Below are positions 3,130 through 54,778 of a stretch of 64,000 nt of DNA, piece by piece. Source of the stretch: Conchocele bisecta (lineage: Eukaryota; Mollusca; Bivalvia; Lucinida; Thyasiridae); the NCBI GenBank assembly GCA_029237695.1, contig CM055265.1:42153331-42217330 (forward strand), read 5' to 3'. The position numbers and the translations under genes are program-made. The notes under the pieces are model-generated. The model did not search any database. It had not been told where the DNA came from and worked only from the letters and a program-made list of their open reading frames with translations. Numbering within the stretch: position 1 is the stretch's first letter; every line of letters starts with the position of its first letter.

Positions 3130-3800
3130 GAAGCTATATTGTTCTTGTTGGTAGGGGGATATTCAATTTATTTGATTCTGTTAGTGGGGGGTGCACTAAT
3201 ATAATTAATTAATTCAATGCTGTGGGTGTTCGCGTCAATTAGAAAATTAGATTTTCGCAGCCTCACAGCGTCTATTTCGTGTTATTCACAATGCATCATG
3301 CATTGTAAAATGCTCATGTCGATTGGCCAACAAAATGACACTTCCAAAGTAGCGTCCAGTGAAAACTGCCGATAGATAATTACGTCCGGAAGCTGCAATT
3401 CGTACCAAGCATTGTTCGTTCGCTTCCATTTCGCCACCGACGAATAAGACAAACACTATCGGCGCGCCCGAATTTTCATGCGTCATTCACGATCTTTTTG
3501 ACAAATTATTACATACGCAAAGACACGTCTTCGACAGAACACGGCAGCATCACATGTACCTACAGCATGCTCAGCGCGATTTTTGCCTTCGTCCACCCGA
3601 CCCCGTGATCAGCTGGAGAGTGAGCGTAAAAATTCCTCCCATCGTGTCGGGTAGAAATCCCACTCGTCCCGGTGGAGAAGCAAAATATCCACCGTGGGAA
3701 CATTTCTAAGACCGAATCTGCCGCACACCGCGTTTCCCCGTGTTAACCCACGGCGCATCACCGTGCCAGTATACAGGTAATACTGGCAGCGAGGAGAGCA
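3130..3800. other. Unassigned stretch, locally CpG-rich
   Basis: From about 3430 to 3790 CpG is more frequent than in the surroundings (ggcgcgcccg, accgcgtttcc). I recognise no exon, repeat family or RNA here. It could be old promoter-like DNA or a hypomethylated repeat. A C homopolymer sits near 3828-3844. Confidence 0.3.
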
Positions 3801-20600: not shown

Positions 20601-23600
20601 ACAGCAATTTCTTGAAATTCAGAGCTATTCACGTATTACACACAACCTATCAGGTAAGAGCATACGATCAGCTTTGACGATTTAACATTTACATGCCGCA
20701 AAAAGTTTCTCAATACTTGTTTGAGGCAAATATGATTTGCATACATGTACTTTCAAGATGGCCACCATTTTGTACAATATGCGTATCAATGAAACTTAAT
20801 CACCATACACTTTCTATCAGTAGCGTCGGAATAAAAATTGTAATTGTTTATTATATATGTATATATGGTTTAATACGACTAGAAGCTGTAATACATACCC
20901 TATTTTATAATTAACATACACTATGCTTATCATGCGATATGGTGACTGTACATGTGTTTGTTTGATGATTAAATGTGTAATATCCTCTACCAACGATCAA
21001 TAGTAATAATGTATCCGTCTTAAGATTATAACATATTGTAGGAATGAATGGCCTTTTTGTGGAATTTATCGGGGTATAAACTTGGAAAAGTCGCGGGAAT
21101 ACTGGACGAAGGCCGGAAGGCCTCGTCCAGTATTCCCGCGACTTTTCCAAGTTTATATCCCCGATAAATTCCACAAAAATGCCATTCATTCCTTATAATT
21201 CCAGCATTTGAAATAAATTCATCAAGAAAATGTGTTTATTTTCCGTTTTCTTAAGAATTATTTTAACTGCACCTGACGGTTATGGAAAGTAGTTCGGCAT
21301 GGAGTTTACTGGGATATAAATTTTGGACAGACACTTGATACGGGCCAATCAAATGTTAGGGAATTGTGTAAATATTTTTGTGCTGGAATTATTGTATCAT
21401 AATTCCAGCACAAAAATATTTACACAATTCCCTAACATTTGATTGGCCAGTAGCAAGTCTCTGTCCAAAATTTATATCCCAGTAAACTCCCACGCCAAAT
21501 TACTTTCTACAGGTGCGCTGTCAGTGCTGTCAATGTAAACAAATGGCTGCCGTCTGTCAAAATAAACACATTTTCTTGATGAATTTATTTCAAATGCTGG
21601 AATTATAAGGAATGAATGAATAACCAATAGGATAAAAATAAACAATTGGCGATAAAAAATTACAATTTTCGAAAAAAAAAAAAAATTGTAATTTTTTATC
21701 GCCAATTGTTTATTTTTATCGCCAATTGCGAAAGTGGCTTTTCCAAGTTTATACCCAGATAAATTCCACAAAAAGGCCATTCATTCCTATGTGTTATTCC
21801 ATTTTGTATTTTGTCTCATGCATTACCATTGCACGGTATACTGTTGCAGAAAATACGTCTACCTGAGTAACAAACTGAACAATATTCATATGACAAATAT
21901 CAAGTTTATGCAAACTGATGTAATACAGCCAATTAATACAATATAAACTACATCATGCATGCACTTTCAGCGACAATTTAATTTACACAAAATGTTACCG
22001 GCAAATGAGACTAAACGAAAGGTAGAAGTGTCCAGGCCCGTACGCAGGAATTATTTTAGGGGGGTGCGTTATCGACGGCGGGAAGGGCTAAACATTGTTT
22101 TTTTGCACATCCACGGACAGACCTCGGCAGATTAACCATTTCACCCCTAAATAACTGGAATTGATTTTGATATGTTAATTTTGCAACCCATTCCAATCAT
22201 CACAAAATGATTTTCAGACCAGTCCATTTATGAACATGAGGTGTTTTTGTTCTCAAAATCATGAACATTACTTGCAAAAAGTGCAGATCCTGATGAAACG
22301 GCTCGTCACGAGCCGGCTCATCTGGATCTACACTTTTTGCCAATACCACTATGGTGTTGAACGGGTTAAGGGGGGTGCGTACGCACCCGTCGCACCCCCT
22401 CTGCGTACGGGCCTGGTGTCAACATTACATAACTGTTGTACCGTGTTTTCTTATTACCACTTTGCGTGCAGAACACGATTACCAAAACAACGTATACTAC
22501 GTGGTTCATGTTCTATTTCTAGCTGATTGCCTGAGATTCTATGTGTGGGACCATGTACAGCTAATCATGGAATCCATTTTAGTGCCTCAATTCAAAATTC
22601 GGCCCACCTGCACGTATTTTGTACATTATCCTTATTTTCCAGGTCAGGAAGTGGTGTTCGATCTATCGAATGTATTATTTTCTATGATCTATTTTCCATG
22701 CACATGCATGCTTAGCCGAACTTAAGTGGATCAATATATTTCTAGTTTTAGTGCAGTTGAGCGATTAATAATTACAACCCAATATGGAATTGATATGCCA
22801 CTCACTCATGTAGCACACTCATTTACATAAACTAGTTGTATACACAGGCGAGTGTTTTATTACTTATCAACCATATATATGTTCTGGTATGGTAGGTGTT
22901 TTTCATAAGCTGCGTATTTGCATATTTGCGTAAATACCCAATGAAAATTGCCAAAAACCCAATTGAAATCAGAAGTAGTGAGTATCAAAAAGCAATGAAA
23001 AATTTGTGGTATCTTTATCATGCTGCAGAAAACAATAAACAGACCACAGCTATAGCATATTTTCTTATTTTTCCATGAAAACACATCTTGATATTTCATT
23101 AGAATTGTCTCCAAGGAGACAATTCTAATAAAATACCAAGAAGTGTTTTCATTTAGAAGCAAACAATTCAATAAGTGCGGTCTGCTGATGTGTAAACAGT
23201 AGTGTGATTCTATTTGACACAATTAACATTTTGAAATACCCAATTGCTTCAGAAATGATGGAGTGACAAAACTCAATTACTAGTTCCTTATCTGGAGCCC
23301 TGATAAGCATGAAATCCATGGCCAGCAGGGTTACGATGATTCAGAAATGTAAGCAATAATATAACAATGTTAATATTAAACAAACATAAATTAAATCAAT
23401 ACTCCAACCGTTGGTCGCGGAATGCATGTTTGTGTCACATTGAAAGCTCATTGATCACCGCTGTGTGCGTGTTGTGTGTTTAATCTGATGTAACGCGTTA
23501 GTTTCTTCTATGCATGCATGAACTCCTTTGGGTATCTTGTTATATATTGTCCATAGCATACCATGCACAAAGATAATGAGATAAGATATGACGACAACAA

Positions 23601-26600
23601 AACATTTATGAAATGGTCACAGAAATAGTTCCTTCGCATGGGTTGTTTAGCATACCTGAACAGATAATACATAGAACTAGGAATATAAACCTGGGCCTGG
23701 TTGTTCAAAACATCAGTTAGCTTAACGGACTGTTAAATCCTTAACTGAATGGTTAAAATCTCTGTTTTAACAGAGATTTTAACCATTCAGTTAAAGATTT
23801 AACAGTCCGTTAAGCTAACGGATGTTTTGAGCAACCGTTAAATCCTTAACTGAATGGTTAAAATCTCTGTTAAAATAGGCAACTAATAGGCAACATGAAT
23901 AATGGTGCTGGATGAACCACTATGTTGACGTACATCTGTCGCTTAATTTCTCGTGACATAGTATGATGGATGCTAAAATGTTGTATATAGAATGTATCAC
24001 CATGCTTTGGTTTTCCACACAAATCTTGTAATACTTGCACCAATTATTTTATTATCACTGCACGGTGATCTATTATATCGTAGGTGGTCTCATTTCGGTA
24101 CATTATCAATATTCTGAATAAAACTAGCAGTACAGCAGCTGGCATGTGTGAAGTTTAATAAACTAGAAAATGTGTTCATAGAACACGGATGTCCCACATA
24201 TCGCTTTGATAATAAATGAGGCCAAATTCCAAGTCAAAATTTTCTTTTACCTGAGCGTTAAAGTTTTTCAAGCACCAAGTATGTGACCTTCACCCTGGGC
24301 TTGGCGGGGGCAGGACAAACGTGGATTTGGCACAGGGCGGTAGAGGACCATTAGAGCAATGCATATATGAAATATGAAGCTGATCCGTGAAAGAAAACAG
24401 AAACTAGAAAAAGTCGATGGCGCGCCATCGCAATATACCCACTTTCCCCAAATGCTAAGTCCGAAAGGGGGAGGTAATCCATGATGGAGGGTCGGATAAA
24501 AAATCCGAATTCACTTTGCGCATCAGCACATCAAAACGAAGCTACGAACCAAATATCAGACGCGTAGGTATTAAGGTGAAAAAGTTTTTCGAGTTACAAG
24601 GAAAAAATGGGAAATTCTGAGTGCGAAAGGGGGAGATAATCCATGATGGAGGGTCGGATGAAAAATCCGAATTCACTTTGCGCATGTGCACATGATAATG
24701 AAGCTACATAGCAAATATGAGGCGCGTAGGTATGAAGGTGAAAAAGTTTTTCGAGTTACAGGAAAAATGGGAAATTCTGAGTCGGAAAGGGGAGGTAATC
24801 GATGATGGAGGGTCGGATCAAAAATGGGAATTCACTTTGCGCATGTGCACATGATAACGAAGCTACATAGCAAATATGAAGCACGTAGGTATGAAGGTGA
24901 AAAAGTTTTTTCGAGTTACAAGGAAATAAATGGGAAATTCTGAGTCCGAAAGGGGGAGATAATCCAATGATGGAGGGTCGGATGAAAAATGCGAATTCAC
25001 TTTGCGCATCTGCACATGATAACGAAGCTACATAGCAAATTATGAGGCGCGTAGGTATGAAGGTGAAATGTTTTTCGAGTTACAAGGAAAAAATGGGAAA
25101 TTCTGAGTCCGAAAGGGGGAGATAATCCATGATGGAGGGTCGGATCAAAAATGCGAATTCACTTTGCGCATCTGCACATGATAAACGAAGGCTACAATAA
25201 GCAAAAATATGAGGCGCGTCGGTATGAAGGTGAAAAAGTTTTTCGAGTTACAAGGAAAAAATGGGAAATTCTTAGTCCGAAAGGGGGAGATAATCCATGA
25301 TGGAGGGTCGGATCAAAAATCCGAATTCACTTTGCGCATCTGCACATGATAACGAAGCTACATACCAAATATCAGGCACGTAGGTATGAAGGTGAAAAAG
25401 TTTTTCGAGTTACAAGAAACGTGACGGACGGACGGACGGACGGACGGACGGACGTACGGACGGACGGACACCCGTGACGAAAACAATATACCCATTTTTT
25501 TTTACAAAAAAGTGGGTATAATTATAAGATATTAACCCGAGCGTTAAAGTTTTTGAAGCACCAAGTATGTGACCTTGACCCTGGGATTGGCGGGGCAGGA
25601 CGAACGTGGATTTGGAACAGGGCGGTAGAGGACCATTAGAGCAATGCGTATATAAAATATGAAGATGATCCATGAAAGAAAACAGAAAGTATAAGATATT
25701 TACCCGAGTGTTAAAGTTTTTGAAGCACTAAGTATGTGACCATGACCCTGGGTTTGGCGGGGGCAGAATGAACGTGGATTTGGCACAGGGCGGTAGAGGA
25801 CCATTAGAGCAATGTGTATATGAAATATGAAGCTGATCCGTGAAAGAAAACAGAAATTATAAGATATTAACCCGAGTGTTAAAGTTTTTGAAGCACCAAG
25901 TATGTGACCTTGACCCTGGGCTTGGCAGGGGCAGGACGAACGTGGATTTGGCACAGGGCGGTAGTGAACCATCAGAGCAATGTGTATATGAAATATGAAG
26001 CAGATCGGTCGAAGGATGAAGAAATTATGAGACATTTACCCGAGTGTTAAAGTTTTGTGATGGACGGACGGACGGACGGGAGGACGGGACGCACGTTCCT
26101 ACGAATGAATACTTGTTGGGTTTTTACTGTATAAAAATACCCAACAAGAGTACCCAACACTATCCTAACCCTACCCAATAAGATCCCTGTACGCTTACAA
26201 CAAGTACCCATTCGTGTGTGTGTGCGGACGGACGGACGGACGGACGGACGGACAAGGGTATCGTGGTGGGGCATAAAAATATTCCAAAGGGTGTTCGAGT
26301 TATGCTCTGGATACAAAATCAGAGCACGAAACAACAAAGGGAGATAAGTAAACAAGATTTCCGCGGAATCAGATGCCTCGCCCTGTCCCGCCTTGACCTC
26401 GAGCCTGGGCCCGAAAGCAATTTTCACTGGCCCGAACATATTATACAATTATTGACTAGTGAGCCATAGAATATCAGATTATATTCTATGGCTCACTAGT
26501 CAATAATTGTTTTATTATATGATAATAGTCTGTATATAGCACTTACGACCTTATGCTACTAGACAAAAATTGAAAAAGAATTTGAAAAAAAAAATGAAAA

Positions 26601-29600
26601 AAAAAAATGGAAAAGAAAAGTTTAAAAATTAAAAATAATAATGCTTGCTACTGGATGCCAGATTTTTTTTTTTAATAGTCCTATATTTATCTACATATAT
26701 CTGCACAGGTCCACATAATGCCACAATATTTTCAACACAGTTTACGGAAATGTAATATACAAAAAAAAATAAAATAATAATGCTCGCTACTGGGAGCCCA
26801 TTTTTGTTAATAGTCCTATATTTATCTACATATATCTGCACAGGTCCACATACTGCCACAATATTGTCAACACAGTTTACGGAAATGTAATAATGTACCT
26901 GTATAAATTACCTGTAATAAGTTAGTGGTCAGTTAAAAAATTGAAAAAGAATGTAAAAAAAAAAATGGAAAAATAAAATTAAATTTAAAAAAAATAAATG
27001 AATAATGCTCCCTACTGGAGCCCAGAATGTTTTTTAATAGTCCTATATTTATCTACATATCATATATACACAGGTCCACATATTGCCATAATATTTTCAA
27101 CACAGTTTACGGAAATGTAATATAATCATTTACCTGTATAAATTACCTGTAAGTGGTCAGTGGTCAGTTGCACATGCTAGCACATGCACAGGTGAATAGT
27201 CTGTATATAGCACTTACGACCTTATGCTACTAGACAAAAATTGAAAAATAATTTGAAAAAAAAATGAAAAAAAAAGTTTAAAAATAATAATGCTTGCTAC
27301 TGGAGCCCAGAATTTTTTTTTAATAATCCTATATTTATCTACATATATCTGCACAGGTCCACATAATGCCACAATATTTTCAACACAGTTTACGGAAATG
27401 TAATATCCAATGTAGTAATTTACCTGTATAAATTACCTGTGGTCAACAGTGGACACTTGCACATGCTAGCCCATGCTAACACATGGTTCTCCCAGTCTCT
27501 ATTGTTCTCTCTACAGGTAAGGTGTACAGAGCACACGAGAAAAAGTGTACAGAGCAGACGAGAAAACAGGTCTTCATGCATTATTGTCCAGTTTGTAGAG
27601 TGCGCAAAACAAAACAAGAGCTGTAGGAGAACGGCATAGCTTGACAAAGAAGGTGGCTGCGGCCTACATAAAAACCTTAACCAAGGTTGACTAAAAACAT
27701 TAACCAAGGGAAACTAGAAATGTGGCCTGTCGGCACACGAATATCCCCACTGGCAGCCAAAGAAAACGAGGCATTTTTGATCATAAGCCATTTAGCCGAG
27801 CGTTAAGGTTTCAAACGCATCAAGACTGTGACCTTGACCCTGGGCATAGTGTGATAATCCATGCATCGGTGTAGAAGATATAGAGCGGAAGGGAATTTCA
27901 ATAGGTTTGACCTTTGACCTTCAACTATGACCTTGACCTTGGACGTAGGTGCGTGGTTATTGATCGAGACACACCTTCTCATCCTGAGAAACATTTGTGC
28001 CAAGGCATTTGATAATGCATGCATCGGTGTAGAAGATATAGAGCGGAAGGGAATTTCAATAGGTTTGACCTTTGACCTTCAACTGTGACCTTGACCTTGG
28101 ACGTAGGTGCGTGGTTATTGATTGTGACACACCTTCTCATCATGAGAAACATCTGTGCCAAGCCATTTGATAATCCATGCATCGGTGTAGAAGATATAGA
28201 GCGGAAGAGAATTTCAATAGGTTTGACCTTTGACCTTCAACTGTGACCTTGGACGTAGGTGCGTGGTTAGCAATTTGATAATCCATGCATCAGTGTAGAA
28301 GATATAGAGCGGAAGGGAATTTCAATAGGTTTGACCTTTGACCTTCAACTGTGACCTTGACCTTGGACATAGGTGCGTGGTTATTGATCGGGACACACCT
28401 TCTCATCACGAGAAACATTTGTGCCAAGCCATTTGATAATCCATGCATCGGTGTAGAAGACATAGAGAGGAAGGGAAGTTCAATAGGTTTGACCTTTAAC
28501 CTTCAACAGTGACCTTGACCTTGGACGTAGGTGCGTGGTTATTGATCGCGACACACCTTCTCATCCTGAGAAACATTTGTGCCAAGGCATTTGATAATCC
28601 ATGCATCGGTGTAGAAGATATAGAGCGGAAGGGAATTTCAATAGGTTTGACCTTTGACCTTCAACTGTGACCTTGACCTTGGACGTAGGTGCGTGGTTAT
28701 TGATTGTGACACACCTTCTCAACATGAGAAACATCTGTGCCAAGCCATTTGATAATCCATGCATCGGTGTAGAAGATATAGAGCGGAAGGGAATTTCAAT
28801 AGGTTGACCTTCAACTGTGACCTTGAACGTAGGTGCGTGGTTAGCAATTTGATAATCCATGCATCAGTGTAGAAGATATAGAGCGGAAGGGAAATTTCAA
28901 TAGGTTTGACCTTTGACCTTCAACTGTGACCTTGACCTTGGACTAGGTGCGTGGTTATTGATGGCGACACACCTTCTCATCATGAGAAACATTTGTGCCA
29001 AGCCATTTGATAATCCATGCATCGATGTAGAAGATAGAGCGGAAGGGAATTCAATAGGATTTGACCTTTGACCTTCAACAGTGACCTTGACCTTGGACGT
29101 AGATGCGTGGTTTTCAAAGTATGGTTGCTGTAGGCCCAGGAGTATTCCATATACAAGCTTGAGTAAAAACCGTAACCAAGGGGAGATAACTAAGTAATCC
29201 AAGGATAAAAGTAGGTCAAGGTGAAATATAGGTCAGGGATTATTGATGTACATCACTAGGAGATGAAGTTGTCCAAGTATGGTTGATGTAGGCCCAGAAG
29301 TATTCCATATACAAGCTTGACTATAAACATTAACCAAGTAATTGAAGGTTAAATGTAGGTGAAGGTAAAATAAAGGTCAGGGGTTATTGATGTACATCCA
29401 TATGAGAAAAAGTTATCCAAGTATGGTGTCTGTATGCACAATAGTATTCCATCTACAAGCTTGACTAAAAACCTTAACCAAGGTTGAGTAAAAACCTTAA
29501 CCAAGGGGAATTAAGTAAGTAATTTAAGGTTAAATGTAGGTCAAGGTCAAATATAGGTCAGGGGTTGTTGATATACATCACTAGGAGATGAAGTTGTCCA

Positions 29601-32600
29601 AGTATGGTTGGTGTAGGGCCATGAGTATTCCATCTACAAGCTTGACTAAAAACCTTAACCAAAGAGAATTAAGTAAGTAATTCAAGAGGAAATGTAGGTC
29701 AAGGTCAAATATAGATCAGGGGTTATTGATGTACATCACTATGAGAAAAGGTTGTCCAATTATGGTGTCTGTATGCACAATAGTATTCCATGTACAAGCT
29801 TGAGTAAAAAGCTTAACCAAGGTCGAGTAAAAACCTTAACCAAGGGGAATTAAGTAAGTAATTCAAGGTTAAATGTAGGTCAAGGTCAAATATAGGTCAG
29901 GGGTTGTTGATGTACATCACTAGGAGATGAAGTTGTCCAAGTATGGTTGGTGTAGGGCCAGGAGTATTCCATCTACAAGCTTGACTAAAACGTTAACCAA
30001 GGGGAATTAAGCAATTCAAGAGGAAATGTAGGTCAAGGTCAAATATAGATCAGGGGTTGTTGATGTACATCACTAGGAGATGAAGTTGTCCAAGTATGGT
30101 GGGTGTAGGGCCAGTAGTATTCCATATAGAAGGTTGACTAAAAACCTTAACCAAAAGGAATTAAGTAAGTAATTGAAGAGGAAATGTAGGTGAAGGTCAA
30201 ATATAGATCAGGGGTTATTGATGTACATACCTATGAGAAAAGGTTGTCGAAGTATGGTGTCTGGATGCACAATAGTATTCAATGTACAATGTACAAGCTT
30301 GAAAAAAAACCTTAACCAAGGTTGACTAAAAACCTTAACCAAGGGGAATTAACCAAGTAATTCAAGAGGAAATGTAGGTCAAGGTCAAATATAGACCAGG
30401 GGTTATTGATGTACATCACTAGGAGATGAAGTTGTCCAAGTATGGTGGGTGTAGGGCCAGTAGTATTCCATATACAAGCTTGACTAAAAACCTTAACCAA
30501 GGCGTGACGGTGACGCCGACGCCGACGCCGACGCCGGGGTGACAACGTAAGCTCTACTTATTCTTTGAATAGTCGAGCTAAAAAGGAGATAACTCAAAAA
30601 TTAGCTACGCAAGAGTTGTCATTCTTGTGCGCGACACACCTCCGGGTCGTGGTCTATGCATGTGTGAAGTTTCATGAAAATATTCCAAAGGGTGGTCGAG
30701 TTATGCTCCGGACAGGAAATCAGTGTGCGAAAACAAAAAAGGGAGATAACTAAAAAATTAGCTATGCAAGAGTTGTCATTCTTGTGCGCGACACACCTCC
30801 GGGTCGTGGTCTATGCATGTGTGAGGTTTCATAAAAATATTCCAAAGGGTGGTCGAGTTATGCTCCGGACAGGAAATCAGTGTGCGAAAACAAAAAAGGG
30901 AGATAACTAAAAAATTAGCTATGCAAGAGTTGTCATTCTTGTGCACGACACCTTCGGTTCGTGGTCTAATTGAATGTGTTAAGTTTCATAAAAATATTCC
31001 AAAGGGTGGTCGAGTTATGGTCAATCAGTGCGCGAAACAAAAAAGGGAGATAACTAAAAAATTAGCTATGCAAGAGTTGTCATTCTTGTGCGCGACACAC
31101 CTTCGGGTCGTGGTCTATGCATGTGTGAAGTTTCATGAAAATATTCCGAAGGGTGGTGGAGTTATGCTCCGGACACGAAATCAGTGCGAGAAACAAAAAA
31201 GGGAGATAACTCAAAAATTAGCTATGCAAGAGTTGTCATTCTTGTGCGTGACACACCTTCGGGTCGTGGTCTATGCATGTGTGAAGTTTCATGAAAATAT
31301 TCCAAAGGGTGTTCGAGTTATGCTCCGGACAAGAAGTGTCTGCGGCGGACGCGGACGCGGCGCGCTGTCAAATCCATAGTATCCCCCGACGGAGTCCGGG
31401 GGATACAATTATATGGATACGGTGTCATTGTAGCGTTATTGTACATCATAAACCAAAACAAAACTATTCTTTTAAAATATAATATCCACTCAGCATGTGC
31501 AGCATGCCAATGGGTAAAACAAGCTCCTTTTCGTTCCTTTGTTTATTTCCGTACTTCCGTCATTAACATAAACATCACGAATTGTAATATTTCGTAGAGT
31601 TGTTGTATTTTCGGTTATCCATGACATCATGTTTGCATACAGTGGGGTCAGCGTGTAAGTGCACACACGAACGAACACGACAGGTTGGTTCGCTACCCAC
31701 CCAAAGTGTATGTTGTTACCACTCAGTTGAACCGTCTCGCCGAGACGGTTCAACTGAGTGGTAACAACATACACTTTTGATGCGAAATGAGAAAAAATGC
31801 AGAAAAATATTTACATTTTTTTTTTATACATGAATTACAGTGGGGTCAGCGTGTAAGTGCACACACGAACGAACACGACAGGTTGGAACCAACCTGTCGT
31901 GTTCGTTCGTGTGTGCACTTACACGCTGACACCACTGTATTTGCGATACCTTCTTTCTATAGCTGCCCCAAGGCCAATAGTCTAAGTCAAATGATGTTTG
32001 CGCTAAAGCTAAAGTACATGCCATAAATATACAACGTATACACCAAGTTGTTGTCCGCTGCATTGCTATTGTGACCGCATCCTAGTAATACATGTACATG
32101 TATTGGCTGAACGAGCAATTTCCGTTAAACCAGGATGTGCTTGTGATAGGAGTACTTAATTTAATTACTAATAATAGCATAAACACGTTAAATAACCGGA
32201 CCATTGTGTATGCAGATATAGCAGATACTGATTTCATGAAATTTGTATGAAATATTCTTTCGGCAAAATATTAATATCCGAATTTGTGGGTCGGTCTCCA
32301 TATAAACACCATAATCTACAGATATTTACGTACATAACGTACTTGTGAAAACTCATCGGCTTTAAGACACATTTTAAACATTAAACCCTACAATACGTAG
32401 GTAGCAATCGTATTTTGTGCAGACATATATTACCAACACAAACAGTAGATGTGTCCTACAAATCAACTCTGACCTTTGTGGATGTACACAAGTTATAATT
32501 ATTGACTAATATGATATACATTTATTTAAAAGACATGTAGTAATGTAAGATGTATATATAACCAATACTTCTAACGTATATGATTATATCAGTCAAGACA

Positions 32601-35600: not shown

Positions 35601-38600
35601 AAAACCTTAACCAAGGTTGACTAAAAAACTTAACCAAGGGAAATTAAGTAAGTAATTGAAGGTTAAATGTAGGTCAATGACAGATATAGGTCAGGGGTTA
35701 TTGATGTACATCACTAGGAGATGAAGTTTTCCAAGTATGGTTGCTGTAGGCCCAAGAGTATTCCATATACAAGGTTGATTAAAAACCTTAACCAAGGGGA
35801 AATAACTAAGTAATCCAAGAATAAAAGTAGGTCAAGGTCAAATATAGGTCAGGGATTATTGATGTACATCACTAGGAGATGAAGTTGTCCAAGTATGGTT
35901 GATGTAGGCCCAGGAGTATTCCATATACAAGTTTGACTATAAAGATTAACCAAGTAATTCAAGGTTAAATGTAGGTGAAGGTAAAATATAGGTCAGGGGT
36001 TATTGATGTACATCCCTATGAGAAAAAGTTATACAAGTATGGTGTCTGTATGCACAATAGTATTCCATATACAAGCTTGACTAAAACCTTTACCAAGGGG
36101 AATTAACTAATAATTCAAGGTTAAATGTAGGTCAAGGTGAACTATAGGTCAGGGGTTGTTGATCTACATCACTAGGAGATGAAGTTGTCCAAGTATGGTT
36201 GGTGTAGGGCCAGAAGTATTCCATCTACAAGCTTGACTAAAAACCTTAACCAAAGAGAATTAACTAAGTAATTCAAGAGGAAATGTAGGTCAAGGTCAAA
36301 TATAGATCAGGGATTATTGATGTACAGCGCTATGAGAAAAGGTTGTTCAAGTATGGTGTCTGTATGCACAATAGTATTCCATGTACAAGCTTGACTAAAA
36401 ACCTTAACCAAGGTTGACTAAAAACCTTAACCAAGGGGAATCAACTAAGTAATTCAAGGTTAAATGTAGGTCAAGGTCAAATATATGTCAGGGGTTGTTG
36501 ATGTACACCACAAGGAGATAAAGTTGTCCAAGTATGGTTGGTGTAGGGCCAGGAGTATTCCATCTACAAGCATGACTAAAAACCTTAAGCAAGGGGAATT
36601 AACTAAGTAATTCAAGAGGAAATGTAGGTCAAGGTCAAATATAGATCAGGGGTTATGGATGTACATCCATATGAGAAAAGAGGTTGTCCAAGTATGGTGT
36701 CTGTATGCACAATAGTATTCCATGTACAAGCTTGACTAAAAACCTTAACCAAGGTTGACTAAAAACCTTAACCAAGGGGAATTAACTAAGTAATTCAAGA
36801 GGAAATGTAGGTCAATGTCAAATATAGATCAGGGGTTATTGATGTACATCCCTAGAAGATGAAGTTGTCCAAGTATGGTGGGTGTAGGTCTAGGAGTATT
36901 TCATATACAAGCTTGACTAAAAACCTTAACCAAGGAGAATTAACTAAGTAATTCAAGAGGAAATGTAGGTCAAGGTCAAATATAGATCAGGGGTTATTGA
37001 TGTACATCCCTATGAGAAAAGGTTGTGCAAGTATGGTGTCTGTATGGACAATAGTATTTCATGTACAAGCTTGACTAAAAACGTTAACCAAGGTTGACTA
37101 AAAACGTTAACCAAGGGGAATTAAGTAAGTAATTCAAGAGGAAATATAGGTCAAGGTGAAATATATATCAGGGGTTGTTGATGTACATCACTAGAAGTTG
37201 TCCAAGTATGGTGGGTGCAGGGCCAGTAGTATTCCATATACAAGCTTGACTAAAAACATTAACCAAGGGGAATTAAGTAAGTAATTCAAGGTTAAATGTA
37301 GGTCAAGGTCAAATATAGGTCAAGGGTTGTTGATGTACATCACTAGGAGATAAAGTTGTCCAAGTATGGTTGGTGTAGGGCCAGGAGTATTCCATCTACA
37401 AGCTTGACTAAAAACCTTAACCAAAGAGAATTAACATAGTAATTCAAGAGGAAATGTAGGTCAAGGTCAAATATAGATCAGGGGTTATTGATGTACATCT
37501 GTAGGAGATGAAGTTGTCCAAGTATGGTGGGTGTAGGGCCAGGAGTATTCCATATACAAGCTTGACTAACAAGAATTCCGCCACGGAAGCGGTGTCGCGC
37601 CTACCGAGGCATTTGACCGTGAACATTACAAGTAAATAAATTACCTTGACCTTCAGAATTTGGATGTGGGGGTGTGTGTAATGAAGCATCATCCATAGAC
37701 AAACATTGATGTGAAATATTATCAATGTCTGGAAAGGGGTTAAAGAGATATTGTGAAAAACAATAACTTTAACGCATTTCTGTTACAAATCCGGTGAACA
37801 TTACAAGTAAATAAATGACCTTGACCTTCAAAATTTGGATGTGGGGGTGTGCGTAATGAAGCATCATCCCTAGACAAACATTGATGTGAAATATTATCAA
37901 AGTCTGGCAAGGGGTTAAAGAGATATTGTGAAAAAACAATAACTTTAATGCATTTCTGTTACAAAACCGTACATTACCAAGTAAATAAATGACCTTGACT
38001 TCAGAATTTGGATGTGGGGGGGTGTGCGTAATGAAGCATCTCTAGACAAACATTGATGTGAAATATTCAATTGTCTGGCAAGGGGTTAAAGAGTATTGTG
38101 AAAAAAACCAATTCTTTAAAGCATTTCTGTTAGCAAAAACCTGAACTTTTTACAAGTATAAATGACCTTGAACTTGAGAATTTTTTGTGCGGGGGTGTGC
38201 GTAATGAAGCATCATCCCTAGACAAAACTTGATGTGAAATATTATCAATGTCTGGCAAGGGGTTAAAGAGATATTGTGAAAAAACAATAACTTTAACGCG
38301 TTTCTGTTACAAAACCGGTGAACATTACAAGGAAATAAATGACCTTGACCTTCAAAATTTGGATGTGGGGGTGTGCGTAATGAAGCATCATTCCTAGACA
38401 AACATTGATGTGAAATATTATCAAAGTCTGGCAAGGGGTTAAAGAGATATTGTGAAAAAACAATAACTTTAACGCATTTCTGTTACAAATCCGGTGAACA
38501 TTACAAGTAAATAAATGACCTTGACCTTCAAAATTTGGATGTGGGGGTGTGCATAATGAAGCATCATTCCTAGACAAACATTGATGTGAAATATTATCAA

Positions 38601-41600
38601 AGTCTGGCAAGGGGTTAAAGAGATATTGTGAAAAAACAATAACTTTAACGCATTTCTGTTACAAAACCGGTGAACATTACAAGGAAATAAATGACCTTGA
38701 CCTTCAGACTTTGGATGTCGGGGTGTGCGTAATGAAGCATCATCCCTAGACAAACATTGATGTGAAATATTATCAATGTCTGGCAAGGGTTAAAGAGATA
38801 TTGTGAAAAAACAATAACTTTAACGCATTTCTGTTACAAAACCGATGAACATTACAAGGAAATAAATGACCTTGACCTTCAAAATTTGGATGTGGGGGTG
38901 TGCGTAATGAAGCATCATCCCTAGACAAACATTGATATGAAATATTATCAGTGTCTGGCAAGGGGTTAAAGAGATATTGTGAAAAAACAATAACTTTAAC
39001 GCATTTCTGTTACAAAACCGGTGAACATTACAAGTAAATAAATGACCTTGACCTTGAGAATTTGGATGTGGTGGTGTGCGTAATGAAGCATCATCCCTAG
39101 ACAAACATTGATGTGAAATATTATCAATGTCTGGCAACGGGTTAAAGAGATATTGTGAAAAAACAATAACTTTAACGCATTTGCCTTACAAAAAAAGCGG
39201 ACGACGCGGACGACGCGGACGACGCGGATGACACCGACGACGGAAAATAAGACGACTATAGTCGCGCCTCTGCTAAAGCAGGCACGACAAATAGTCGCGC
39301 CTCTGCTAAAGCAGGCGCGACAAAAACCTTAACCAAGGGGAATTAACTAAGTAATTCAAGAGGAAATGTAGGTCAAGGTCAAATATAGATAAGGGGTTAT
39401 TGATGTACATCTCTAGAAGATGAAGTTGTCCAAGTATGGTGGGTGTAGGGCCAGGAGTATTCCATATACAAGCTTGACTAAAAACCTTAACCAAGGGGAA
39501 TTAAGTAAGTAATTCAAGAGGAAATGTAGGTCAAGGTCAAATATAGATCAGGGGTTATTGATGTACATCCCTATGAGAAAAGGTTGTCCAAGTATGGTGT
39601 CTGTATGCACAATAGTATTCCATGTACAAGCTTGACTAAAAACCTTAACCAAGGTTGACTAAAAACCTTAACCAAGGGGAATTAACTAAGTAATTCAAGA
39701 GGAAATGTAGGTCAAGGTCAAATATAGATCAGGGGTTATTGATGTACATCACTAGGAGATGAAGTTGTCCAAGTATGGTGGGTGTAGGGCCAGTAGTATT
39801 CCATATACAAGGTTGACTAAAAACCTTAACCAAGGCGTGACGCCGACGCCGGGTGACAACATAAGCTCTACTTATTCTTCGAATAGTCGAGCTAATAAAA
39901 ATGGTCACATGTTGGATAGTTGTATGTGGTAGGCACCCCTTGGTTATGAAGCTGTGAAAGTTTGGTGGTCCTAGGTGGTACAGTACCAAAGAAATGGACT
40001 TAAACACGAAAACTTAACATTGTAAACGCGAAAACTTAACATTGAAAATGGCGAAGTCGACTGCGCAGAAAAAATGGGTCAAGTTAAAAACAAAAGTAAC
40101 ATGTTGGATAGTGATATGTGGTGGGCACCCCTTGATTATGAAGCTGTGAAAGTTTGGTGGTCCTAGGTGGTACAGTAACAAAGAAATGGACTCAAATACG
40201 AAAACTTAACATTGATTGTGGACGCCGCCCGCCCGCCGCCCGCCCGCCCGGCTTTCGCCAATCTAATAGCCTGGATTTTTTTTTTAAAAAACCTGGCTAA
40301 AAATTAATAAAGTTATCCTAAAATTGAAAATTTCTCCGTCAAAGTATTATAACTGCAATTTTGATGAAATCGGCTACTGATAAATTGTTTCAACATATGC
40401 ATGCAGGTTGAGTCTCGACCTTGAATCTGGTACTGACCTTGTTCTCGAGATCTTGCATGGTGTCTATGGATTTGATGTTGTTTTTGATACTAGTGAACAT
40501 GTTTGTAAAATCTCAAATGGCATCCATGGGATAGCCTTGAAGGGGATACCAACATTGAGATATTGGATGCTGTCCATATGTTTGACAAAATGCATGAAAC
40601 CAAACTTATTCTCGACATCTCGGATGGTAACCGTGGGTTTGAACTTTGACCTTTTGTATATTACTGGTCTCAACCTTGAGAGCTTGGGTGGTAACCGTGA
40701 GCTTGACGTTTTGTATTAAAAGTACTAATTTCAACCTTTAGAGCTTGGGTGGTGACCGTGGGTTTGAGACCTTAAATGGTGACCGTGGGCTTCAGAGCTT
40801 GGTGACCGTGGGTTTGAGAGCTTCAATGGTGACCGTGGGTTTGAGAGTTTCAATGGTGACCACATGTTTTAGAGCTTGAATGGTGACTGCAGGTTTGAGA
40901 GCTTGAATGGTGACCGCGGGTTTGAGAGCTTGCATGGTGACCGTGGGTTTGAGAGCTTTAAAGGTGACCACGAGTTTGAGAGCTTCAATGGTGACTGTGG
41001 GTTTGAGAGCTTCAATGGTGACTGTGGGTTTGAGAGCTTGCATGGTGACTTCGAGTTTGAGAGCTTGCATCATGGTGACTGTGGGTTTGAGAGCTTGAAT
41101 GGTGACCATGGGTTTGAGAGCTTGCATGGTGACTGCGGGTTTGAGAGCTTGAATGGTTGGACTTGCGGTTTGAGGCGCTTGAATGGTGACTGTGGGTTTG
41201 AGAGCTTGAATGGTGACTGCGGGTTTGAGAGCTTGAATGGTGACTGTGGGTTTGAGAGCTTGCATGGTGACTGCGGGTTTGAGAGTTTGAATGGTGATTG
41301 TGGGTTTGAGAGCTTGGATGGTGACTGTGGGTTTGAGAGCTTGCATGGTGACTGGGTTTGAGAGCTTGAATGGTGACTGGGTTTGAGAGCTTGAATGGCG
41401 ACTGTGGGTTTGAGAGCTTGCATGGTGACCGTGGGTTTGAGAGCTTGAATGGTGACTGCGGGTTTGAGAGCTTGAATGGTGACTGTGGGTTTGAGAGCTT
41501 GCATGGTGACTGCGGGTTTGAGAGTTTGAATGGTGATTGTGGGTTTGAGAGCTTGGATGGTGACTGTGGGTTTGAGAGCTTGCATGGTGACTGGGTTTGA

Positions 41601-44600
41601 GAGCTTGAATGGTGACTGTGGGTTTGAGAGCTTGAATGGCGACTGTGGGTTTGAGAGCTTGCATGGTGACCGTGGGTTTGAGAGCTTGCATGGTGAGTGC
41701 GGGTTTGAGAGCTTGCATGGTGACCGTGGGTTTGAGAGCTTGCATGGTGACAGTGGGTTTGAGAGCTTGAATGGTGACTGTGGGTTTGAGAGCTTGCATG
41801 GTGACTGTGGGTTTGAGAGCTTCAATGGTGACTGTGGGTTTGAGAGCTTGAATGGTGACTGTGGGTTTGAGAGCTTGCATGGTGACCGTGGGTTTGAAAG
41901 CTTGAATAGTGACCATGGGTTTGAGATCTTGAATGGTGGCTGTGGGTTTGAGAGCTTCAATGGTGACTGTGGGTTTGAGAGCTTGAATGGTGACTGTGGG
42001 TTTGAGAGCTTGCATGGTGACCGTGGGTTTGAGAGCTTGCATGGTGACTGTGAATTTGAGAGCTTGGATGGTGACTGTGCGTTTGAGAGCTTGAATGGTG
42101 ACCGTGGGTTTGAGAGCTTGAATGGTGACCGTGGGTTTGAGAGCTTCAATGGTGACCACGGGTTTGAGAGCTTCAATGGTGACCACAGGTTTGAGAGCTT
42201 GGATGATTATCGTGGTTTTGACCTTGAGTGATACTGACCTTGTTCTTGAGATCTCTGATTGTATCTGTGAATTTGACCTTGAGTGTGATATTCCCACCAG
42301 ATGCCTCTTTGTCTTCTATATACACCTTCAAACTGCAACCACAGCAATGGAGGAGATAATGTACAATTTAAATCCATTTTATTGTTTGCACTGGTTTCTC
42401 AACGAATGAAACCACTGCATTTAGATTTGTTTCCATCTAAATTAATTGCATATTGAGACTATTAAACAACATCATATTTATGAACAAGAGGTCACACCTT
42501 GTTGTCGGGCCAAATAATAAAACAGTTACAGTTCACATATTGAATATTTTAATAGCTCAAAACTAAACACATTTTCTTGATGAATGTATTTCAAATGTTG
42601 GAATTATAAGGATGAATGACCTTTTTGTGGAATTTATCGGGGCATAAACTTGGAAAAGCCGCAGGAATACTGGACGAAGGCCGGAAGGCCTCGTCCAGTA
42701 TTCCCGCGACTTTTCCAAGTTTATATCCCCAATAAAGTCCACAAAAAGGCCATTCATTCCTTATAATTCCAGCATTTGAAATAAATTCATAAGAAAATGT
42801 GTGTATTTTGACAGACGGCAGCCATTTGTTTACATTGACAGCACTGTAGAAAGTAGTTCGGTGTGGGAGTTTACTGGGATATACATTTTGGACAGAGACT
42901 TGCTACGGGCCAATCAAATGTTAGGGAATTGTGTAAATATTTTTGTGCTGGAATTATTAACAAGAACAAGGTGGCCGATATTGGATGTGACCTTAATAAA
43001 TGTTTGGGAAAATATCAAACTTCATACATACTTAAATTCTTGGTCTTTCTCTGGTGTCTCCTTTGGTCGGATGTTAATTGTGACCAGAACATTTTCTGCA
43101 GCCAATTTAGCTGCATACTCCTTCGCATGGTTCTGATCGCCATCATTAATGGCCGTCTGCAGCAACTTGGCTGTCTTTGTAGCCACTTCCTCCTGCAGCT
43201 GGGCATTCGGGGTAGTCTTGGCATCCATCTTGTTCCGTGCTCCCATTTGCACATATGTATCGTCTGTTAGCAAGAATTCCGAATGTATCGGCTCATAATA
43301 CCCACTTGCATCAGTTTGGAACACACTGTCAACTGAGTTCAGAATTGAATCTAGCTTCCTAGGCAGTTCACTTGGATGGATATGTAAGCTATCAAATAAT
43401 GGAAAATTCACTTTGGTAACTACGTCGCTACTCGGTGGGAACTTCTCATAATCCGGATATTTGGTAGTTTCTACACTATTATTCGTGATGAGCTCTGCTG
43501 TGATGGGTAAGTATGGAGCGGGGTCAAATGGGGCTCTTAGTGATTGGAGAGGTATGTCACTATTCCTGTTGACCAATGGATCTGTTGGACTACTTCGGTC
43601 ACTAACTGCCGAGCCCCGGTTACTAGTGTCTAAAGCTACTGACGAGTCCGATATAGATTTTCGGAGAACATTTGGTTTGGGAATGACGTCGCTACTTGGA
43701 ACTTGTACTGCTACCAGCATATAGGCTGAAATGTTAGATGTAATTAGGTACCGTATGATGATGACGAGTAAGACAGAACTGCAGATAAGCTTTATGTCTT
43801 AAAGACTATCATACCCCCTGATTTCAAATAGAATGCAGAGCTCCAGATAAGCTGCATATTTGCGTAAATACCCAATTAAAATTGCCAAAAACCCAATTGA
43901 AATCAGAAGTAGTGAGTATCAAAAAGCAATAAAAAAATTGTGATATCTTTATCATGCTACAGAAAACAATAAACAGACCACAAATATAGCATATTTTTTT
44001 TATTTTCTTTGTGAAAACACTTCTTGGTACATACATGTATTTCCAAGACATGTTTTCATTTCGAAGCAAACTATTCAATAATTGCTGTCTGTTGCAATAT
44101 TATACGTATATGGTATAATTATACGATATAGCATATTTTTCTTATTTTCCATGAAAACAGATCTTGGTATTTCATTAGAATTGTCTCCAATTGACAATTC
44201 TAATGAAATGCCAAGACATGTTTTCATTTTGAAACAAACTATTCAATAATTGCTGTCCATTGATGTGTAAACAATAGTGTGATTTTATTTACCCAATTAA
44301 AATTTTGAAATACCCAACTGCTTCAGAAATGATGGAGTGAAAATACTCAATTACCAATTCCTTATCTGGAGCCCTGCTAGGCAAAAAATTATCCAAGCAT
44401 GAAAAAAAGATAAAAAGTTACTTATTTCAGCTGCAAACCTCAACTAAGTGAATTTTCAACCTTATTAGAGCGTTTTCACTTCTCAATTGGATAATCAAAA
44501 AGTCTTTTCAAATTGTTGTGAGTATTTTGTATTTGCACTTGGAAAATAAATGCGTATTCAGCTAAAATAAATACACAAATACACAAATACGTTAATTATC

Positions 44601-47600: not shown

Positions 47601-50600
47601 GGCTAAGTCAATTATGTAGAAATAATAGGTCAAGGAAAAAAAAAATGGTCACATGTTGAATAGTTGTATGTGGTGGGCACCCCTTGGTTATGAAGCTGTG
47701 AAAGTTTGGTGGTCCTTAGGTGGTACAGTACCAAAGAAATGGACTTAAACACGAAAACTTAACATTGTAAACGTGAAAATTTAAAAAGTTAACATTGAAA
47801 ATGGTCGACAGCGCGGAAAAAATGGGTGAAGTTAAAAAAAAAGGTAACATGTTGGATAGTGATATGTGGTGGGCACCCCTTGGTTATGAAGCTGTGAAAG
47901 TTTGTTGGTCCTATGTGGTACAGTAACAAAGAAATGGACTCAAACACGAAAACTTAACATTGATTGTGGACGCCGCCCGCCGCCGCCCGCCGCCCGCCGC
48001 CCGCCCGCCGCCCGCCCGGCTTTCGCCAATCCAATAGCCTGGATTTTTTCCCCAAAAAAAACCTGGCTAAAAATGACAATATTTCAGAACTTTAGACAAT
48101 TCTGAAAAATGTGGGTATTTGACTCGTGATACGGAGGTAGATAAAACACTGTTATTGATCACAAGCAAAACCACATACCGGTAATTCTGTAATGGCGATT
48201 CACATTGTATAAACAATGTACAGTGAAATCGCTTTGGCTCAAAATGCGATGGCCCGTAATGTCGGGCTCGCTCGAAATAGCGTCGCGGTCCTGATAATTT
48301 TCCTTATATGTTTAATGTATTGTACATACGATGGCTAAAAATGCAACTCCTTGAAAAATGCCATCCCTCGAAACATTTTTCAAGTCCTACATGTATTTCA
48401 AAGTTTGTGTTTGGCTAATTTTCACACCTCCGCGTCCAACTTATTACAATCAAAGGTTGAGCCACGCTCTAGACAATGAACAGAACAGAACATACGAAAT
48501 GTGATTTCTTTTTCAAGTGCAGTTAATTGCCTAAAGTGTGTAATTTGATCGTCAACGTTGTTGATTTGCGATCAACGACATATGCGATTTATTAACTATT
48601 CTGGGCTTCGGCCACTCGGTGCATTTAATAAGAGTCTGTCATAAGTCACTGGTCGTTTTTCATGGCAACTCCCGGGTTATACTCGAGTAAATTGGGTAGC
48701 ACAGGAACAACCAGAGTCGTTGCTCGGGTTCAAGTCGAGTTGGAACTATAGTAACCCACCATACGGCATGGGTTCGATTAAAGTTACTCTAGTAAGGTTC
48801 AAAGGTCAAAACTCAAGTTGGAACTCTGCTTGTTCCAGTTCAGGACCTGAAATGTTCGTCCTCGACAACTATTCATGATGCATGTAATTAGATATCAATA
48901 GAGTAGTGAAATAGTAAACCCATACCAAGTGGCACGAGTCTGCAAGTTGACAGCGTTTACACTGGTCAAAAACTAGGTAAAGCACCTTTTATTGCGTCGC
49001 AACATTTTACAATTCATGACTGATTCCACATTTTTTAAGGGCACCGTATAACAACATTGTTTGAGCTGGGCCCATACACCACTATTTAGAATGACGTCAC
49101 AACCACCTGCGACATTAATTGTGTGCGCCGCTATTTATAATAATTACTGGAGCTTTTCTCCTTTGATAATAATTGAAATAAAGACAGTTTTGTAAATACA
49201 TTTACAGTTTATTTAATTTCACACAATAACTTTAATCTGCGAATAAATACTATTATAATCTAAAACATGGATACACTCTATTATGCTTCGTTATTTAATA
49301 AATGCGACGGGTACAGTAGTTGACAAATATACCAAAATCGCAAGATGCGATGGCTCGAAAGATGAGATCACTCAAAAACAATGTGCAGGCCCGTGGGCTT
49401 TCAAGCCATCGCGATTTTACTGTATATCCAGTGAACCACCTCCAAATAGCAATCGCCTGACGGCACAAGTTACATTTTTTTCTCCCCAGTGACACGAATG
49501 ATGGTGTCAGTGGACGAAAGGGGCTAAGTCATATAATTGAAGGGGTCAGTGGAAGAAAGCGGCTAAGTCATAGAATTGAAGGGGTCAGTGGAAGAAAGGG
49601 GCTAAGTCATATAATTGAAGGGGTCAGTAGAAGAAAGTGGCTAAGTCATAGAATTGAAGGGGTCAGTGGAAGAAAGCGGCTAAGTCATATAATTGAAGGG
49701 GTCAGTAGAAGAAAGCGGCTAAGTCATAGAATTGAAGGGGTCAGTGGAAGAAAGCGGCTAAGTCATATAATTGAAGGGGTCAGTAGAAAAAAGGGGCTAA
49801 GTCATAGAATTGAAGGGGTCAGTAGAAGAAAGCGGCCAAGTCATAGAATTGAAGGGGTCAGTGGAAGAAAGGGCTAAGGGGTAAGTCATAGAATTGAAGG
49901 GGTCAGTGGAAGAAAGGGGGCTAAGTCATAGAATTGAAGGGGTCAGTGGAAGAAGGGGGCTAAGTCATAGAATTAAGAAGTCAGTGGAAGAAGGGGCTAA
50001 GTCATAGAATTGAAGGGGTCAGTGGAAGAAGGGGGCTAAGTCATAGAATTGAGGGGAGGGGTCAGTGGAAGAAAGGGGGCTAAGTCATAGAATTGAAGGG
50101 GTCAGTGGAAGAAGGGGGCTAAGTCATAGAATTGAAGGGGTCAGTGGAAGAATGGGGCTAAGTCATAGAATTGAAGGGGTCAGTGGAAGAAAGGGGCTAA
50201 GTCATAGAATTGAAGGGGTCAGTGGAAGAAAGGGGCTAAGTCATAGAATTGAAGGGTTCAGTGGAAGAATGGGGCTAAGTCATAGAATTGAAGGGGTCAG
50301 TGGAAGAATGGGGCTAAGTCATAGAATTGAAGGGGTCAGTGGAAGAAAGGGGCTAAGTCATAGAATTGAAGGGTTCAGTGGAAGAAAGGGGCTAAGTCAT
50401 AGAATTGAAGGGGTCAGTGGAAGAAGGGGGCTAAGTCATAGAATTGAAGGGTTCAGTGGAAGCAGGGGGCTAATTCCATAAAGGATTTAGCCCCCTGCTT
50501 CCACTGACTCAATTGCTATAGAAATGACCCTATGAACTAAAGTCGACTGTAAACAGAGGCCAGGTTTTTCACTTCACATGGCTGGCCTTTTGATACAGGT

Positions 50601-54155: not shown

Positions 54156-54510
54156 GAATAATTCCAGCAAAAAAATATTTACACAATTCCCTAACATTTG
54201 ATTGGCCCGTAGCAAGTCTCTGTCAAAAATTTATATCCCAGTAAACTCCCACGCCAAAATACTTTCCGTAACCGTGAGGCGCAGCTAAAATAATTCATAA
54301 GAAAACGGAAAATAAACACATTTTCTTGATGAATTTATTTAAAATGCTGGAATTAAAAGGAATGAATGGCCTTTTTGTTGAATTTATCGGGGATATAAAC
54401 TTGGAAAAGTCGCGGGAATACTGGACGAGGCCTTCCGGCCATCGTCCAGTATTCCCGCGACTTTTCCAAGTTTATACCCCGATAAATTCACAAAAAGGCC
54501 ATTCATTCCT
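54156..54510. mobile_element. Foldback family F, copy 4 (inverse orientation)
   Basis: The module (ataattccagca...) comes first and the palindrome (54359-54510) second. The centre ggacgaggccttccggcc is inverted relative to copies 1-3 and 5. Confidence 0.75.
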
Positions 54511-54559
54511 ACAATATGGGTTTGACCGTATCGTTGCACCTCTATTAGCAGCCCATCAA

Positions 54560-54778
54560 AATAAAAGAGTTGAAGCATGACTGGTTTTTCATTGGTGGAA
54601 TGACGAACAGTGCAGATCCTGATCAGACTGTGCGTATGCACAGGCTGATCTGGATCTGCACTGGTCGGAAAACAATAAGCCCCATTTCCCCAGTCACAGC
54701 TACATATACAGATCCGAAAAATCAGTGGGATGGAAATATGACAAAAGTATTGAACCCACAGCCTTTGATATTGAAGTT
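54560..54778. repeat. Family G repeat followed by a SINE-B scrap
   Basis: It has gcagatcctgatcagactgt and ggctgatctggatctgcact as inverted arms, then atcagtgggatggaaatatg and tattgaacccacagcct from SINE-B. Confidence 0.55.

Follow-up and report, generated by a model that had tools for sequence, protein, structure and literature searches.

The name 'mirage' for a class of minisatellites is attributed to Canestro et al. 2002, a minisatellite with multiple splice donors in the human gene IFI6 (6-16) reportedly goes back to Turri et al. 1995, and Taylor & Breden 2000 are said to have proposed that minisatellites are born by slippage at noncontiguous repeats. In the excerpts of the amphioxus studies considered here, mirages are tandem repeats that span exon-intron boundaries, as in Adh3, the globin genes BflGb6 and BflGb9, and troponin C, with PGBD5 as a similar case; the units measure 10-72 bp in Adh3 and 150-160 bp in the globins (PMC3087553, PMC3902484). 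The same excerpts report that the 3' boundary of exon 2 is duplicated in BflGb9, that haplotypes of BflGb6 carry 6 and 3 units, that Adh3 is somatically unstable, that boundary units escape homogenisation, and that many repeats, although not all, contain copies of splice signals; within these excerpts, a disturbance of splicing was not seen (PMC3087553, PMC3902484). The IFI6 minisatellite is cited in a passage of another paper (PMC4526556), and an excerpt on human segmental-duplication genes describes internal tandem repeats with a mean of 30 bp, some of them at exon-intron boundaries (PMC2812944). One further study states that annotated repeats were excluded from it (PMC9013439). Here we analyzed a stretch of 64,000 nucleotides from the bivalve Conchocele bisecta (GenBank assembly GCA_029237695.1, contig CM055265.1, positions 42,153,331 to 42,217,330), hereafter called the window, in which a 27-bp minisatellite lies at the start of intron 3 of a predicted HOIL-1L/RBCK1-like ubiquitin-ligase gene.

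We consider it very probable that this array was born from the end of exon 3 by tandem duplication across the exon-intron boundary, as a 'mirage'-type minisatellite. As in the amphioxus mirages, the repeats span the boundary, beginning at ~42288 within exon 3, crossing the donor and ending at ~40387 with unmatched flanks, and the boundary copies are kept out of the homogenisation of the interior, the end units being the most diverged; the 10-72 bp units of Adh3 also cover a length of 27 bp. Copies of splice signals are weakly represented, by one intact AAG/GTCAGT (40437). In contrast to the amphioxus cases, the dominant unit here corresponds to exon codons, lacks a strong donor and is present in ~54 copies, boundary copies in graded states of decay lie on either side of the array, and the host gene is HOIL-1L-like. 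The human internal tandem repeats share the minisatellite-sized units and, in some instances, the position at exon-intron boundaries, but in the excerpt considered they average ~4 copies and are tied to new introns (PMC2812944), whereas a new intron is not shown here. The original prediction, made from the letters of the stretch, had called such a birth unusual; the amphioxus mirages provide a precedent for it.

Graded boundary copies at both ends of a 27-bp array

Exon 3 (42239-42332, 94 bp; the gene and the tract are both read on the - strand) encodes the first half of the ubiquitin-like (UBL) domain (...NLKVYIEDKEASGGNITLKVKFTDTIRDLKNK) and was located by tblastn with the homologous proteins P0005 and P0006, with which it shares 75% and 73% identity. 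Its end reads ...KVKFTDTIRDLKNK/GTCAGT at 42239/42238, as the original prediction had it, and the authentic phase 0 donor AAG/GTCAGT, at 42233-42238, is given by the sequence and by the join of exon 3 to exon 4. We found that the tract fills the first ~1.85 kb of intron 3 and reaches into the exon: when the 27-bp consensus was aligned with wrap-around to 40380-42300, the alignment continued without a break from 42288, inside exon 3, to 40387. Read from the exon, the tract begins with the exon tail and its donor and, at a distance of 55 bp, a second copy; then come ~54 units of 27 bp and decayed longer copies, with an exon tail and donor at the end. The last ~50 bp of exon 3 (within 42239-42332) are the probable source of the tract.

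The proximal post-donor copy (TCACTCAAGGTCAAAACCACGATAATCATCCAAGCT, 42196-42231) is a second copy of the exon tail at a 55-bp offset, recognised by a 14-base exact repeat and by shuffle tests. This repeat, CACTCAAGGTCAAA, occurs twice across the donor, 55 bp apart, as read from the sequence with overlapping 7-mers, and the recurrence of ATCAC-TCAAGGTCAAA directly after the donor, also noted earlier, was found again. The word TCAAGGTCAAA is also contained in several of the large arrays of intron 3 and has 20 occurrences in the window, counting both strands, so its presence alone in exon and intron means little.

The minisatellite body (40742-42195) has the consensus CTCAAACCCACAGTCACCATTCAAGCT, translated as LKPTVTIQA. 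Tandem Repeats Finder gave 27 bp x 54.4 copies at 40740-42205 with 88% matches, and a unit parse of 40740-42222 gave 56 segments, 50 of them gap-free, with the same peptide consensus, in agreement with the predicted count of more than 50 units. Within the body, six consecutive pairs of units are identical at a 9-unit offset, and the divergence of units from the consensus peaks toward both array ends.

At the far edge, the intermediates that had been described were all present. Unit A (40680-40741, ~61 bp) is a longer edge copy that matches both unit B and the exon tail with its donor. Unit B (40605-40679, ~64 bp) is a hybrid, with a unit-like left part and an exon-like right part (FKPTVTIRDVENK, at 40605-40646) that is identical to the exon end at 32 of 42 positions. 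It is followed by a middle decayed copy of exon tail and donor (40500-40604), supported by shuffle tests, in which GTTGGTA stands at the donor position; this position is decayed in unit B as well. The distal copy (40408-40491) spans the exon tail through AACAAG/GTCAGT into the intron start (IKSIDTMQDLENK/GTCAGTACCAGATTCAAGGTC) over 78 aligned columns. It encodes IDTMQDLENK, with AACAAG/GTCAGT at 40438, and the donor-equivalent first base is 40437, where the 9-mer is identical to the authentic donor. A gap-free register, in which the exon codons VKFTDTIRD correspond to the unit LKPTVTIQA, is fixed by unit B; a donor-centred register drawn by eye was dropped for that reason. Graded copies of the boundary segment are thus present at both ends of the tract, with the homogenised 27-bp array between them.

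Origin of the array

An ungapped scan with the last 42 bases of exon 3 covered 127,918 placements over both strands. The five top non-self matches all fell in the tract, with scores of 32 (40605-40646), 32 (40438-40479), 28 (40669-40710), and 27 and 26 for array units; outside the tract the maximum was 25, reached at two places. When the exon with 34 intron bases was aligned to 40380-40740, the score was 78, and none of 1000 dinucleotide shuffles reached it (mean 26, maximum 46); under another scoring the distal copy gave 87 (0/500 shuffles). The score of the exon against the first 99 intron bases was reached by 1/1000 shuffles. Among the copies themselves, unit A matched unit B with a score of 61 and the exon tail with donor with a score of 37.5, and the middle copy, taken as 40500-40612, matched the distal copy, each at 0/500 shuffles.

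The match to the tandem consensus sets in within the exon and stops abruptly. The first 40 bp of exon 3 did not match it (z -0.5), whereas the last 54 bp did (z +3.0), and the exon with 10 intron bases reached z +3.9 (1/2000 shuffles). Among the copies, z was highest in the middle piece (6.9), followed by unit B (5.8), the proximal segment 42196-42238 (5.0, 0/2000) and the distal copy (4.8); the match was missing in the flanks (upstream intron z -0.6, downstream -0.3) and in exon 4 (z -0.1). The exon and the consensus agree at 17 sites, of which 16, 16, 14, 14 and 12 are retained in the five copies beyond the array body; in the rest of the window the maximum is 12, attained by 19 placements. 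Where the edge copies depart from the unit consensus, four of the five do so toward the exon state (distal copy P 0.005, middle 0.036, unit B 0.001, unit A 0.012); combined over all five copies, P would be 3e-6 if the values were independent, which they strictly are not. This argues that the edge copies are not merely decayed array units, as departures would then be random.

The earlier claim of 22 identical bases over a 33-base core holds for the A-variant of the unit, whereas the G-variant consensus shares 21. Inside the array, 16 placements reach at least 22 of 33 (11 at 22, 4 at 23 and 1 at 24), as compared with a maximum of 20 elsewhere.

Several results weigh against an origin of the array in the exon. 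The proximal post-donor copy, the remaining edge copy, shows no significant shift toward the exon (P 0.12). Unit A pairs weakly with the distal copy (21/500 shuffles) and with the middle piece (14/500), the middle piece pairs weakly with unit B (5/500) and with the exon tail (4/500), and unit B tops the best exon shuffle narrowly, at 40.0 vs 39.5. The array body alone is marginal, as 10/300 shuffles reach its score with the exon; for the last 54 bp of the exon against the tandem consensus, 12-13 of 2000 shuffles do so, and in gapped comparison with the consensus the score of exon 3 is equalled or exceeded by 87 of 6188 windows elsewhere. Since the array body alone is marginal, it is the intermediates that provide real evidence for the link between exon and array. 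They connect to both the exon and the unit, which supports the origin of the array in the exon end.

The same marginal score of the array body is what favors a history of two events, in which a single duplication of exon tail and donor produced the copy at 40438, and an unrelated 27-bp sequence lying between the copies expanded later, its likeness to the exon being due to chance. The identity of consensus and exon, 21-22 of 33 against a best of 20 elsewhere, also speaks for it. However, such a history does not account well for unit B, a gap-free hybrid that shares 32/42 with the exon end and yet 21/27 with the unit consensus, nor for the shift toward the exon state in four of five edge units, nor for the location of every 33-mer placement above 20, the exon itself aside, in or beside the tract. 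We therefore regard the two-event history as quite improbable.

Returning to a birth from the exon end, the segment duplicated in tandem would reach from the 3' end of exon 3 over the splice donor into the opening bases of intron 3. Slippage during replication, or unequal exchange, may have produced the first copies, 55-60 bp long, at short repeats that the exon end already contained, namely CTCAAG, 33 bp apart, and AAGGTCA, 39 bp apart. A 27-bp sub-part, the codons VKFTDTIRD, would then have been amplified to ~54 units, and the middle of the array would have turned over while its edges retained old states. The model of slippage at noncontiguous repeats, as described in an excerpt of a later paper, is comparable in that the exon end holds short non-contiguous direct repeats, but differs in that their spacings are 33 and 39 rather than the unit length of 27 (PMC3389668). 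An exon-rooted FastTree arranged the units ladder-like in their physical order, starting at the distal edge. The exact order was recovered in 1/100 bootstraps and likewise in 1/100 shuffled-root trees, and the first four branches in 1/100 and 3/100, respectively; the tree, which the original prediction had proposed as a check, is not robust and was set aside as evidence, its failing support being a further point against the proposed origin.

A 103-bp array probe was also compared with the 1.89-Gb genome, in which the window lies on a 225.6-Mb contig; its 21 matches fell in a single candidate region, and every one lay within this array. This search leaves out very common words, and only its best candidates are scored. 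An origin in a dispersed satellite, named beforehand as the finding that would overturn an exon-seeded birth, was rejected on this basis. Taken together, the predicted birth from an exon is upheld by the intermediates, the shared exon end and the single locus, with one correction: the duplicated segment spans the exon-intron boundary and is not exon alone.

Coding potential, the spare donor and the direction of change

The tract is most likely removed with the intron and has no predicted coding function. The unit is open in several frames, as had been noted, but the number found, four of six, is common among shuffled 27-mers and therefore uninformative, and the LKPTVTIQA frame is not the frame of the exon, whose read-through ends 21 residues past the donor. 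Changed codons among the units comprise 22 synonymous and 60 non-synonymous cases against 22:59 among possible single changes, which by that measure indicates no coding constraint. No protein was found for the array open reading frame at E <= 0.001 among 7996 scored candidates, and no Pfam family exceeded its own cut-off with the array peptide. A coding repeat was rejected on these grounds: the synonymous share is as expected, the exon frame is closed, and protein relatives were not found among the 7996 candidates.

Donor strengths were scored with a weight table. Of the 79 GT sites in the tract, 40437 was the only strong donor besides the authentic one; the 27-bp units scored poorly and the array body holds no strong donor. 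Outside the tract, 17 more sites in intron 3 scored at least as high as the spare donor. The human IFI6 minisatellite is similar in that it lies beside an exon and offers repeated splice donors, but its units, as cited in the passage considered (PMC4526556), serve as donors, whereas the units here score poorly by this table. The spare donor (40437) would be an inert decoy, or a site in rare use.

An alternative is a functional tract, in which the repeats or the duplicated donor would act in splicing, for example to yield a truncated HOIL-1L (LTM plus half of the UBL) or a repeat-coding isoform. The identity of the 40437 9-mer with the authentic donor and its standing as the sole other strong site in the tract would fit this, as would the uneven variation of the units over codon positions 1, 2 and 3 (35, 18 and 46 variant cells; chi-square P 0.002, with cells that are not independent owing to shared ancestry; the distinct variant types number 12, 9 and 10). 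A further point in its favor is that in Aplysia one of four HOIL1 isoforms is described, in the excerpt considered, as Sharpin-like and lacking the TRIAD (PMC9334734). However, the 17 equally strong or stronger sites elsewhere in intron 3, the 22:60 ratio of changes, the early closure of the exon frame, and the lack of protein or Pfam matches within the searches described all oppose a function, which we consider very improbable. The likeliest reading of the tract is that of an inert, turning-over minisatellite of the intron.

As to direction, the exon appears to be the older partner because its end is common to P0005 and P0006 and is ubiquitin-like; although the periodic tract does extend into the exon, the converse, in which the repeat came first and the exon end was overwritten by or recruited from it, merits almost no credence, given this shared end, its resemblance to ubiquitin (ITLEVEPSDTIENVKAKI) and to the HOIL-1L UBL, and the finding of the array at one locus only.

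Host gene, neighboring repeats and meaning of the locus

By its domain and homology matches, the host gene is HOIL-1L/RBCK1-like. The joined exons 2-4 matched PDB 5y3t_A (HOIL-1L) at E 2.3e-17; three polyubiquitin chains outrank it in the structure match list because these chains repeat the ubiquitin domain. In the product of these exons, the Pfam ubiquitin and LTM families both exceeded their cut-offs. The N-terminal exon (51522-51370) was placed by P0005 only. Exon 2 (43032-43723, its 5' limit approximate) carries the LTM domain and was found by tblastn of P0001-P0006 and by PF25393. Exon 4 (19358-19559) encodes the second half of the UBL (MLMKHMFPVEVQSWIIGKRI...); it was placed by homologous proteins, with splice ends read from the sequence. 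Its join to exon 3 gives DLKNK-MLMKHMFP, reproducing DLKNRMLLKHMFP of P0006 in agreement with the homologous proteins, and leaves an intron 3 of ~22.7 kb in phase 0 (42238 to 19560). An NZF (zinc-finger) exon (~10185-10012) and a further gene piece (~6088-5924) were located by tblastn of P0005 and P0006, although in these two proteins themselves the Pfam matches to NZF fell under the cut-off. To the left of the window, in the flanking stretch 42143331-42153330, the same strand carries RING1 and IBR exons (3471-3527 and 640-741 of that stretch), whose E values against structures of HOIL-1L are 3.6e-14 and 2.6e-22. The HOIL-1L/RBCK1 domain order of LTM, UBL, NZF and RING-IBR was found with RING1 and IBR in place, and these exons make the gene HOIL-1L-like rather than SHARPIN-only.

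The window holds further repeats. A second minisatellite (49499-50473, 39 bp x 24.7) occupies part of the intron that separates the N-terminal exon from exon 2; against six gene exons on both strands its best local score was 24, obtained without a null, and no clear similarity was seen. Large tandem arrays with units of ~135-339 bp occupy much of intron 3 (24450-31335 and 35612-39835). Intron 2 contains, immediately before exon 3, a long fold-back inverted repeat (42620-42760) that looks by eye like a miniature inverted-repeat transposable element (MITE), with similar translated fragments near 54384-54776 and 21105-21221.

The passage from an exon end to a minisatellite appears to be an event of a kind described before in a small number of genes of lancelets and humans. 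The locus extends repeats at exon boundaries to a HOIL-1L-like gene, and among the matches listed in a literature search, which covered few subscription journals, we found no earlier report for HOIL-1L or for a comparable exon-codon unit. It also illustrates that the final unit of a minisatellite can consist of exon codons and yet be non-coding. A wider proposal, that mirages are a general route in animals for intron growth and for spare donors, with this locus, where exon, boundary copies and derived array stand side by side, as a readable fossil series and 40437 perhaps used at a low level to give a truncated HOIL-1L, seems to us rather unlikely. Minisatellites often lose their seeds, and their births are then difficult to trace; at this locus the seed is a conserved exon, which allows direction and decay to be argued from a single genome.

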